DNA of 44,709 nucleotides from Bradyrhizobium sp. (lineage in GTDB: Bacteria; Pseudomonadota; Alphaproteobacteria; Rhizobiales; Xanthobacteraceae), in NCBI RefSeq assembly GCF_019242285.1, contig NZ_JAFAVV010000003.1, forward strand, positions 1 to 44,709. Direction: 5' to 3'. The notes beneath the pieces are model-generated. The model was not told the origin of the DNA and made no database searches. It saw only the letters and a list, made by a program, of their open reading frames with translations. A program made the position numbers and the translations under genes. Below are positions 2,062 to 40,166 of this stretch, piece by piece. Position 1 is the first letter of the stretch; each line of letters begins with the position of its first letter.

Positions 2062-3276
2062 TCATTTCTTCACCATCGGGCACGCCCGGTCGGGCGGGCC
2101 GAACGCCTGCTCGCCCGGGATCTTCGCCAGGATCTGGTAATAGTCCCACGGATACTTGCTCTCGTCCGGCGACTTGACCTGCGCCAGCCAGAGATCATGC
2201 ACCATCAGATTGTCCTCGCGCAGCCGGCCGTTGCGGGCGAAGAAATCCTCGACCGGTTTCTCGCGCATCCTGGCCGTGACCTTCAGCGGGTCGTCGGTGC
2301 CGGTCTCCTTGATCGCGTCGAGATAATGCCAGACGGCGGAATAGACCCCGGCCTGCCACATCGTCGGCATCCGGTTCACCTTGGCGAAGTAGCGCCTGGA
2401 CCATTCCCGCGTCTTGTCGTCCATGTCCCAGTAGAACGAGGTGGTCAAAAGCAGGCCCTGCGCCGCCTTCAACCCGAGGCCGTGGACGTCGGTGATCAGC
2501 GCGAGCAGCGCCGCCATCTGCTGGCCGCCCTTGAAGATGCCGAACTCGCCGGCGGTCTTGATCTCGTTCACGTTGTTCGGCGGGCCGCCGGCAATGCCGA
2601 CGATCTTCGCCTTCGACGCCTGCGCCTGCAGGATGAAGGACGAGACGTCCGAGGTCGCAAACGGCGGCCGCACCGAGCCGACCACCTTGCCGCCGGTCTT
2701 CGTCACGACCTCGGAGGCGTCGCGCTCCAGCGAGTGCCCGAAGGCGTAGTCGTCGGTGATGAAGAACCAGCTGTCGCCGCCGCGCTTGACCACCTCCTGC
2801 GCGGTGCCCGCCGCGAGCGCATGGGTGTCGAACACCCATTGCAGCGCATAGGGCGAGCAGAACTTGCCGTGGAAATCGGCCGTTCCCGTCGACTGGGTGA
2901 TGAACAGCTTCTTCTTCTCGTTGGCGATGCTCTGCACCGCAAGGCCGACTGCGGAGACCGGCACGTCGACGATCAGGTCGACCTGCTCGGTGTCGTACCA
3001 GCGCCGCGCGATGGCCGCGCCGACGTCTGGCTTGAGCTGGTGGTCGCCGATGATGACGCTGACCGGCTTGCCGAGCACCTTGCCGCCGAAATCGTCGACC
3101 GCCATCTGCGCCGCCGTCACCGAGCCCTGGCCGGTCGGCGTCGAGGCCGGCCCGTTCATGTCGGTGAGCACGCCGATCTTGACCGCGTCGTCGGAAATCT
3201 GCGCCCGCGCCGCGCCCGGCATCAGCATTGCGGCGAGCAGCGCCGCGAGCAGGGATAATGTCCTGGCTGGAATCAA
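2062..3276 (-). CDS. ABC transporter substrate-binding protein, branched-chain amino acid (LivJ/K-like) type
   Basis: This is a periplasmic type I binding protein of the Peripla_BP_6 class. The mature part begins AQISDDAVKIGVLTDMNG and shows GSVTAAQMAVDDFGGKVLGK and FITDDYAFGHSLERDASEVV, typical of binding proteins for HAAT-family ABC importers (branched-chain amino acids, amides, urea or aromatic acids). The ORF track extends it to 3438, but the likely start is the TTG at 3276: GGGGGAGGA precedes it at good distance and the reading then opens with a proper signal peptide (IPARTLSLLAALLAAMLMPG). That gives 404 residues, usual for the family. No permease or ATPase genes adjoin it, so the ligand cannot be inferred. 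The structured intergenic region at 3.48-3.83 kb lies upstream of it. Confidence 0.9.
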   Translation of the reverse strand: MIPARTLSLLAALLAAMLMPGAARAQISDDAVKIGVLTDMNGPASTPTGQGSVTAAQMAVDDFGGKVLGKPVSVIIGDHQLKPDVGAAIARRWYDTEQVDLIVDVPVSAVGLAVQSIANEKKKLFITQSTGTADFHGKFCSPYALQWVFDTHALAAGTAQEVVKRGGDSWFFITDDYAFGHSLERDASEVVTKTGGKVVGSVRPPFATSDVSSFILQAQASKAKIVGIAGGPPNNVNEIKTAGEFGIFKGGQQMAALLALITDVHGLGLKAAQGLLLTTSFYWDMDDKTREWSRRYFAKVNRMPTMWQAGVYSAVWHYLDAIKETGTDDPLKVTARMREKPVEDFFARNGRLREDNLMVHDLWLAQVKSPDESKYPWDYYQILAKIPGEQAFGPPDRACPMVKK

Positions 3277-3480
3277 GTGGTCCTCCCCCAATCGACGCGG
3301 CGTGCGTCTTTCGTGTTGCTGCGCCTCGCCACCGGCCGAGCTCGAAGCGAGCCGGCACGCGTTTGTGTATCCCGCATCCTTATGCAGATTTCTGCGATCT
3401 TCAACCATCCGGCAAACAGCGGAAATGTCATGGAGCAACGTTCCCGCGGCGCGAAACGCCCGGGTGATGCCATTGATCCG

Positions 3481-3830
3481 GCCCTCCGGAAATCAAGAGG
3501 GCGCAGGGAATGCCGAGTGCTTCAGCCGCACCCATGGCCCGCGTGCAACAAGAACGCACGCGGCGGTTACCACAGGTTCAGCCGAGATCACCGGCATTCC
3601 CTGCGCGATGGTGTTAACGCTTATGCCGTGCTCTCCCCGGGGACCGGGCTTTCTTGCCCCCGTCGCTCGCAAGATCATCTCTCTTTGCGAGCTTGACACC
3701 AGCGTCGGGGTGTCAGGACCACACGGTTTCGCCGTCCGCGGCATCCCGTTCGTCTGACGGGTTGCCTGCGTCCATCGCACCCCGTCCCGCGTTCGTGACG
3801 ATCGCGATACGCCCCCCTTGCCGGGACGGG
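3481..3830. repeat. Inverted-repeat-rich, gene-free structured region
   Basis: The 875-base gap between 3276 and 4152 holds no convincing gene. Within it are consecutive inverted repeats: GCCCTC/GAGGGC (3481-3502); a perfect 15-base pair GCGCAGGGAATGCCG (3501-3515) with its complement at 3592-3606; nested inside this, CCGCGTGC/GCACGCGG (3539-3563); GCTCGCAA/TTGCGAGC (3665-3692); TGACACC/GGTGTCA (3694-3715); and CCCGTCCCG/CGGGACGGG (3781-3830). This looks like a folded RNA or a composite palindromic repeat. I recall similar sequence in other Bradyrhizobium genomes, but that is memory, not a search. Confidence 0.6.
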
Positions 3831-4050
3831 ATGCACCTATAATCGCACTGATTTGGGGTCGGCGTCAAGCGATTTTCCGAAAATCGGAAGGCGATAGTTG
3901 CCGTAGGCCACGGCCGGTTTTGCGCATGGTCGGCACGCGGCCTCTTGGCTCGCGGCAGTCGCGAGCGCCTCAGGCAGTGACGGCGCGATGATCGTGGCCA
4001 TGTGAAGCAAATATGATGATCGTACGACAATGATAAAGTGTTGAAGCCGG

Positions 4051-4078
4051 TTGACGTCAATCGACGCCTTTCTATCTA
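4051..4078 (+). promoter_or_regulatory. Candidate housekeeping-type promoter for the DUF3551 gene
   Basis: TTGACG (4051-4056) and TATCTA (4073-4078) are separated by 16 bases, in a stretch that is AT-richer than its surroundings. This places the transcript start about 65 bases before the DUF3551 ATG. The -35 matches TTGACA at five of six positions and the -10 matches TATAAT at four. This is a motif match only. Confidence 0.35.
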
Positions 4079-4151
4079 CGCCGGGCAAATGATGCGACGT
4101 TGGCTGCCGTTTCTCCTCGAGAGCGGCGCGACAAGAAGATAGGAAGAAAGA

Positions 4152-4493
4152 ATGAAGCCGTTATCGAGGACGATGATCGTCCCCCCTGTGAAAGCGCTGC
4201 TTGCAATCGCTGTCGTTGCCACGACTGTGTCGAAGGCCAGCGCGGAAGATTGGTGCCGGATCAACGAACACAATCTCTTGAGCTGCGGGTTTGCGAGCAA
4301 GGAACAGTGCAATGCCATGACGTCCGGCCGCACGGGCTACTGCGACCACAATCCGTTCCCGGGCAAGCCTGCCGCTCACCACCCGATCGGGGTGTATTCC
4401 CAGGCGGAATACACCGCCTGCCTGTCCATGAAACTGGATTGCGGCGGTGGTGCGTTTGCCTATGCACCGAAGACGAGGCCGGCAAGGAACTGA
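4152..4493 (+). CDS. DUF3551 small secreted cysteine-rich protein
   Basis: A 113-residue exported protein. The N-terminus MKPLSRTMIVPPVKALLAIA leads into a hydrophobic core and a probable cleavage after KASA, so the mature form starts EDWCRINEHN. Six cysteines follow (DWC, LSCGF, EQCNAM, YCDHN, ACLSM, LDCGG), the spacing seen in DUF3551 proteins, which are abundant in Bradyrhizobium and relatives and have no known function. The cysteines probably form disulfides in the periplasm. GGAAGAAAG before the ATG is a reasonable ribosome site. It appears monocistronic, with a candidate sigma-70 promoter about 75 bases upstream. Confidence 0.82.
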   Translation: MKPLSRTMIVPPVKALLAIAVVATTVSKASAEDWCRINEHNLLSCGFASKEQCNAMTSGRTGYCDHNPFPGKPAAHHPIGVYSQAEYTACLSMKLDCGGGAFAYAPKTRPARN

Positions 4494-18890: not shown

Positions 18891-19127
18891 GTGGGCTAGG
18901 ATTCGCCGAAGCTCGAAGAGCGAAGGCGAAGCGTGCCCACCGCCAAGATGCATGCTGTCGAGAGAATGGGAGGCACGGTGCTCCGCCCGATGCGAAGCAT
19001 CGCGCGTGTGCGTCTTAGAGCGTTTTCGAGCGAAGTGGATACCGGTTCGCGTGAAGAAAACGCGTCAAAACAAAGAAGCTGGAGCTTCCGTTCCGATTCC
19101 ATCGGAACGAAAAAGCTCTAGCCCACC
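18891..19127. repeat. GTGGGC intergenic repeat, copy 1, carrying a nested insertion
   Basis: The copy opens GTGGGCTAGG and closes TAGCCCACC. Inside are the submotifs shared with the other copies: GCGTGCCCACC, then GTCGAGAGAATGG followed by GGCACGG. A 105-base palindromic element (19016-19120) interrupts it just before the closing end. The right end overlaps the last codons of ku on the minus strand. Confidence 0.7.
19016..19120. repeat. RIME-like palindromic element with TAGAGC/GCTCTA ends
   Basis: The 105-base unit starts TAGAGCGTTTTCGAGCGAAG and ends GCTCTA. It contains an internal perfect hairpin, GTTCCGAT/ATCGGAAC. Sequences beginning this way are frequent between genes in Rhizobiales and resemble the rhizobial intergenic mosaic elements (RIME). 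It sits at the TTAG of the host GTGGGC repeat. Its right end supplies the stop codon of ku, and the hairpin may serve as the ku terminator. Confidence 0.65.
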
Positions 19128-23531: not shown

Positions 23532-23560
23532 TCGGGCCTCGTTTTTAGCGAGATGCGGAG

Positions 23561-23770
23561 GGTGGGCTAAGCGCAGCGTGCCCACCAATTACGGGCAATG
23601 CCGTCGAGAGAATGGTGGGCACGGCGCTGCGCGCCTTAGTCGTACTAAGTCACATGTGTGGTGCTCTCGTTGAAACTCTTGAGCTTTTTGGAACGACCAT
23701 ATTTGCACAAAGACGAGTCGATTCAATGGCTTGAGTCTTCTTGTGACTCAGTACGATTAGCCCACCCTAC
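23561..23770. repeat. GTGGGC intergenic repeat, copy 2, interrupted by a MITE-like insertion
   Basis: The left end is GGTGGGCTAA and the right end TTAGCCCACCCTAC. Shared submotifs are GCGTGCCCACC and CGTCGAGAGAATGGTGGGCA. A 117-base insertion splits off the right end at TTAG. The treY stop codon (TAG, 23767-23769) is part of the right end. Confidence 0.75.
23640..23756. mobile_element. 117-bp MITE-like element with 14-bp terminal inverted repeats and TTAG duplication
   Basis: The left end TCGTACTAAGTCAC (23640-23653) and right end GTGACTCAGTACGA (23743-23756) are inverted repeats matching at 13 of 14 positions. TTAG flanks the unit on both sides (23636-23639 and 23757-23760). Removing the unit plus one TTAG restores an uninterrupted repeat end, CCTTAGCCCACC. 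The interior is AT-richer than its surroundings and has no ORF, so it would depend on a transposase elsewhere. The family was not identified. Confidence 0.7.
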
Positions 23771-40005: not shown

Positions 40006-40166
40006 GTAGGGTGGGCTGAGGCGCGCACGCGACGATGCTTCGCATCGCGCGGAGCGACGTGCCCACCATTCTCTCACGGCCTGGCTTCAAAATGGTGGGC
40101 ACGCTCCTGGCTTTGCGTGGCGAGCTTCTGTGCATGCGGCTGCTTAGCCCACTCTGCGAACTCTAC
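40006..40166. repeat. GTGGGC intergenic repeat, copy 3, uninterrupted
   Basis: It begins GTAGGGTGGGCTGAG and ends TTAGCCCACTCTGC...CTCTAC. Submotifs GACGTGCCCACCATTCTCTC and AATGGTGGGCACG match the other copies, and GATGCTTCGCATC makes an internal hairpin. It fills the gap between the convergent GH15 and HAD genes. The HAD stop codon (40163-40165) lies in its right edge. Confidence 0.7.

Follow-up and report, generated by a model that had tools for sequence, protein, structure and literature searches.

A segment of the minus strand running from about position 3834 to about 3436 of the window, the 44,709-nt stretch of Bradyrhizobium sp. DNA analysed here, is probably a member of a dispersed family of structured non-coding RNA genes, each transcribed independently of its neighbours. 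The initial annotation had read positions 3481–3830 as a gene-free, multi-stem structured RNA or a new repeat family, and both halves of this reading are supported. The full unit reaches a little beyond the stretch noted there: it comprises an RNA of ~3436–3834 and a promoter block that extends to ~3890. Beyond the earlier reading, sequence comparison points to the minus strand, to a promoter of the gene's own, to as many as ~130 intact copies per genome and to a reach of the family into other genera. The features of the window copy are listed in Table 1.

Table 1 Features of the RNA gene copy in the window and of its surroundings
Feature	Position	Strand	Remarks
Structured non-coding RNA gene copy, ~400 nt	3436..3834	-	5' end probably near 3834, 3' end near 3436; core common to all 40 copies first aligned; strand from wobble asymmetry
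-35 hexamer TTGACG (CTTGACG)	3863..3868	-	Sole promoter-like site in 3300-4160; CTTGACG-like box in 22/70 copies with upstream sequence
-10 hexamer GATTAT, preceded by TG	3839..3844	-	12-13 nt upstream of first stem
Inverted repeat TTCCGATTTTCGGAA upstream of -35	3875..3889	-	Recurs in type A copies; possible operator or upstream element
P1, 5' hairpin	3777..3834	-	Arms 3822-3834 and 3777-3789; inner segment GAGGGGCGNNTCGCGATCGTCACG near-invariant in family
Multi-branched middle domain	3610..3776	-	Closing helix 3772-3776/3610-3614; from consensus fold of 95 copies and fold of window copy
Middle-domain helix		-	CGUGU(GGUCC)/(GGGGAGA)GCACG; CGUGU pairs with GCACG
Middle-domain hairpins	~3740-3767, 3693-3715, 3665-3692, 3640-3663	-	From consensus fold of 95 copies and fold of window copy
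Long hairpin	3501..3606	-	15-bp perfect base 3501-3515/3592-3606, holds hairpin 3539-3563; pairing retained in other copies despite exchanges such as G-C to C-G or U-A
Hairpin GCCCTC/GAGGGC, 3' of long stem	3481..3502	-	By eye and consensus fold
3'-terminal hairpin CCCG-GGCG ... CGCC-CGGG	3443..3464	-	Covarying pairs; model pairs 381-389/393-402
Peripla_BP_6 binding-protein gene	2062..3258	-	Neighbour outside the unit; same strand, ~180 nt past RNA 3' end

Every stem named in the initial annotation is present at its claimed position. An inverted-repeat search of the window recovers the perfect 15-bp pair at the base of the long hairpin, within which an 8-bp pair (3539–3546/3556–3563) is nested; a further 8-bp pair lies at 3665–3672/3685–3692, and a 13-nt pair with a 92% match lies at 3777–3789/3822–3834. 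Two shorter pairs are visible by eye, GCCCTC/GAGGGC at 3481–3486/3497–3502 and TGACACC/GGTGTCA near 3694–3715. The minus strand from 3836 to 3436 folds at -217.1 kcal/mol (z = -7.0), a value equalled by none of 100 dinucleotide shuffles, and hence the stems in the window are more than chance. The plus strand also folds well (z = -5.9 against dinucleotide shuffles), as is expected of inverted repeats.

The suggestion that the stems form a multi-stem RNA rather than a single terminator is borne out by the aligned copies, which share one consensus structure and in which compensatory base changes, proposed at that time as a check, are plentiful. On a maximum-likelihood tree, 286 events change both sides of a pair while keeping the pairing, compared with 13–21 when the partners are slid by 1–3 columns. 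When covariation is tested strictly over all pairs against a tree-based null, 4 of the 121 structure pairs are individually significant, together with one pair outside the structure. In 68 copies from the window's own genome, 95.1% of cells are paired versus 88.5% (sd 0.2) after shuffling; the worst of these copies has 11% of its pairs broken and the window copy 0.8%. In homologues from other genera much of the long stem has been exchanged (GCAGGGAAUGCCGG to GCGGAACGCCGG) and is still paired.

The same alignment of 95 copies assigns the strand. The consensus fold reaches -279 kcal/mol on the minus strand compared with -228 kcal/mol on the plus strand, and the paired cells of the minus strand comprise 9255 Watson-Crick, 1406 G-U and 210 A-C combinations. 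Consistently, among one-sided changes of Watson-Crick pairs on the tree, 409 yield G-U and 127 yield A-C. Because G-U and A-C are each the other read from the opposite strand, a constraint acting at the DNA level would be blind to this difference. Mutation bias is rejected as the source of the asymmetry, since the excess of C>T over G>A in unpaired columns is merely 1.5–1.6-fold. A plus-strand RNA is rejected on its weaker consensus fold and on a wobble bias that runs the wrong way. Compensatory changes for one secondary structure, combined with strand-specific wobble tolerance, mark the family as structured RNA.

Just upstream of P1, the window copy carries a sigma70-type promoter sequence, TTGACG-18-GATTAT, on the minus strand. 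Similar tails, here called type A, have CTTGACG-N17/18-CATWAT or a close variant 12–13 nt before P1 in 22 of 70 own-genome copies, accompanied by the upstream inverted repeat TTCCGATTTTCGGAA. About two thirds of the own-genome copies have type B tails, in which a T-rich block is followed by a TGnTAT-like sequence that matches a promoter weakly. Among divergent copies, mostly from other genera, 19 of 23 have a -10 match at the P1 promoter distance, and most of these divergent copies carry TTGACA-N17-TATATT-like boxes at the same distance. A promoter of its own at a fixed distance is thus predicted clearly for type A and for most divergent copies of other genera, and more weakly for type B. The promoters of type A and of the divergent copies match the RpoD-type consensus reported for B. 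japonicum, TTG-N16-18-TATA, and an extended -10 element, TGnTA, is known there too (PMC4842269). No terminator of the RNA gene is recognised. Own-genome copies combine one RNA body with either of two unrelated tails, type A or type B, as though promoters had been swapped. In the loci L065–L071 and L059/L060, which belong to photosynthetic Bradyrhizobium and some others, an inverted repeat TGCCCGWCGGGCA lies ~80–100 nt upstream of the RNA start; it is kept at the ku/ligD site described below and may be an operator.

Related sequence had been expected in other Bradyrhizobium genomes, and the proposed search for homologues finds them in abundance. A DNA search returns at least 40 relatives with 76–84% identity in the own genome, in which a conserved 20-mer also occurs 79 times at up to 3 mismatches, against 2 for a control. 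Copy counts are given as matches of a covariance model, R1, that was built on the 3' half of the RNA. By this measure the own genome has 129 copies and Bradyrhizobium sp. BTAi1 has 94, and five further genomes of the genus have 103, 53, 26, 18 and 16, so that the repeat family is real and numbers up to ~130 intact copies per genome. The figure of 129 may count some split copies twice because the own genome is a draft of 979 contigs, many of which end in copies; BTAi1 (94) and the single-contig genomes G025 (103) and G015 (53) are free of this problem.

DNA matches occur in 34 of 37 genomes of the genus, and all named carriers are Bradyrhizobium; the three genomes that have none indicate that the family is not essential to the genus. 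In the same family of bacteria, 18 of 47 genera have a DNA match; genera other than Bradyrhizobium have few copies, and many genera of the family have one to several mismatch-free occurrences of a 24-nt motif from the 5' hairpin. Beyond this family of bacteria, a class-wide search with this P1 motif gives nothing above chance level. DNA matches are absent from 24 genomes of other families of the order, in two genera of one of which the 3'-half model finds three matches. Plasmid, phage and viral collections give no matches, and a phage, plasmid or viral element is rejected on this ground. Rfam 15 has no match to window positions 3200–4200 up to E = 1, and for the element at ten diverse loci its sole match is a microRNA hairpin at chance level (E 0.16, L113). 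A search of the open-licence literature found no description of the family, which is not proof that there is none. The family is unnamed and is missing from Rfam.

The own-genome copies are old, as their median pairwise identity is 79% and no full-length pair exceeds ~93%. Most copies group by lineage in the copy tree, with some mixing. The RNA unit is full-length in nearly all copies, which were found by similarity, so that badly decayed ones could be missed. At a site between genes that we read from their translations as ku and ligD, the RNA and its promoter are almost unchanged among BTAi1, B. aeschynomenes, STM 3809 and SRS-191, and the rest of the intergenic DNA is not alignable. A second site is common to B. 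aeschynomenes, BTAi1 and SRS-191, and a third B. aeschynomenes copy is absent from the matching intergenic region of BTAi1. Shared sites, sites that differ in presence and the intactness of the copies together indicate that copies are gained or lost and that those present are kept intact. The presence/absence site L065 shows neither an exact junction nor a target duplication, the intergenic DNA being too diverged. One copy (L107, 2326–2817) is apparently interrupted by ~65 nt at model position 316.

Such a dispersed, intergenic and uneven distribution (16–129 copies within the genus), the presence or absence of a copy at one site between strains and the frequent adjacency of copies to other palindromic repeat modules would also fit a mobile or REP/MITE-like repeat, whose stems act as DNA hairpins in copying, protein binding or supercoiling and whose transcript is incidental. 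This is unlikely, however, because DNA hairpins are strand-blind, yet G-U is tolerated about seven times more than A-C and on one strand only; in addition, the unit is directional, ~400 nt long and provided with promoters at a fixed distance, and no obvious terminal inverted repeats are seen at the copy edges. Known palindromic repeats of these bacteria include Br-REP1 and Br-REP2 of B. japonicum USDA 110, which are dispersed intergenic palindromes of 20–40 nt with RNA hairpins (PMC5082802), and the GTAG and CGTC REP super-families, which are high-copy in Bradyrhizobium and Rhodopseudomonas with units of 20–40 bp (PMC3733652). The family is like Br-REP1 and Br-REP2 in being dispersed through intergenic DNA of Bradyrhizobium and relatives and in forming RNA hairpins. 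Br-REP1 is absent from the window, and Br-REP2 has only a chance-level match elsewhere. REP/BIME elements (GTAG, CGTC, Br-REP) are rejected because the unit here is ~400 nt, directional and equipped with a promoter, versus palindromes of 20–40 bp.

A second account takes the RNA as belonging to an RNA-guided or retro-type mobile element (omega-RNA/HEARO-like, reRNA or retron-like), the copies being non-autonomous and amplified by an enzyme encoded elsewhere. HEARO, the omega-RNA of IscB elements, is likewise a large structured RNA with many dispersed copies per genome, and large structure, an own promoter, uneven copy number and lineage-clustered copies all fit mobile spread. Such an origin is nevertheless improbable: neither HEARO nor any other Rfam family matches, no neighbouring gene family or ORF recurs in ~110 loci, and the copies are old, with none decayed among those found by similarity. 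Unlike HEARO/omega-RNA or the reRNA of TnpB, the family has no adjacent IscB or TnpB nuclease ORF, and each copy has a predicted promoter of its own.

The stretch had been placed upstream of a binding-protein gene, which is correct: the Peripla_BP_6 gene lies on the minus strand, and the window RNA reads toward it from ~180 nt away, as a cis-regulatory leader or 3'-UTR element of its neighbours (riboswitch, attenuator or stabiliser) would. This arrangement is not typical of the family. By our own approximate calls of flanking genes, 72 copies lie between divergent genes in 20 cases, convergent genes in 20 and tandem genes in 32 (20 + 12), so that orientation is nearly random, and no gene family recurs beside them. 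A leader of the binding-protein gene is rejected on this context, and a cis-acting element of any kind, already largely refuted, is very improbable. In five relatives with an orthologous binding-protein gene, the element is absent within 1.5 kb upstream, which does not amount to an empty site because synteny differs.

That the minus strand encodes a family of short proteins (ORFs 3493–3780 or 3713–4060) is scarcely credible, and this reading is rejected, as the initial annotation had anticipated in finding no convincing ORF: long frames are open on both strands (median longest 114–122 codons versus 84 in shuffles), but ORFs across the stretch have no Pfam match, the frame is lost between copies, anchor-to-anchor distances vary freely modulo 3 (25/20/15) and substitutions track base pairs.

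If the stretch is an RNA gene, as proposed here, RNA polymerase with the housekeeping sigma factor would start at the tail promoter CTTGACG...GATTAT and produce an RNA of ~400 nt. In its predicted fold, a 5' hairpin whose inner motif is near-invariant is followed by a multi-branched domain, then a long stem and finally two 3' hairpins. Because the hairpin motif is invariant and the copies are independent of context, its most likely role is that of a trans-acting scaffold for an RNA-protein particle, with the invariant P1 segment as the likely binding platform. The genes would have been copied round the chromosome by some process, with selection on the RNA keeping the copies intact rather than allowing decay. 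Tentatively, one large structured RNA may be encoded by ~100 genes that each carry a promoter and are each kept intact by selection; this would parallel SINE- or snRNA-like amplification in a bacterium, with the dispersed copies still working as RNA genes and possibly spread via an RNA intermediate.

Large structured bacterial RNAs, GOLLD, ROOL and OLE included, are usually single- or few-copy. The family is like these large ornate RNAs, studied by cryo-EM (PMC12286853), in being hundreds of nucleotides long, multi-branched and non-coding, and unlike them in that their Rfam covariance models do not match it, its copies reach ~100 and it is not found in phages or viral contigs. The non-coding RNAs BjsR1–BjsR10 and BjrC of B. 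japonicum, some with a few paralogues, reach about four imperfect copies in a genome according to published reports (PMC5082802, PMC4842269), and by description it is this copy number that sets them apart. It is unusual for a large folded RNA to have so many intact copies that carry promoters. Neither a housekeeping role nor selfish decay easily explains a ~400-nt RNA gene with up to ~130 such copies per genome and an orthologous site kept while its flanks drift, and both accounts are testable in genetically tractable Bradyrhizobium.

The family also has practical consequences for annotation and assembly. Its open frames invite spurious annotation as 'hypothetical protein', which presumably exists in databases already. 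Its copies break draft assemblies: many contigs of the draft genome G000 (e.g. C432, C154, C164 and C165) begin or end inside copies.

Other repeat modules, some of them REP-like, flank some copies. A different palindromic repeat of ~130–210 bp, GTAGGGTGGGCWAAG ... GCCCACCATTC ... GCCCACCCTAC, is present in the window at 23557–23770 and 40006–40157 (4 matches versus 0.05 expected), and it flanks several RNA-gene copies elsewhere too. Positions 19031–19052 carry an exact copy of CGAAGTGGATACCGGTTCGCGT, which belongs to another dispersed repeat (CTAGAGCTTCCGTTCCGAT...) that also lies near RNA-gene copies in L026, L028 and L043. Further modules of this genome are CACTGTCGTCGCCCGGCTTGACCGGGCGATCCAG... 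and REP-like GTAGCCCGCATGAGCGAAGCGACATGCGGG pairs, found in L020 and L031 (both in the flank at the RNA 3' end), L046, L047 and L054. The window also contains a tRNA-Met (CAT) gene on the minus strand at 798–873.
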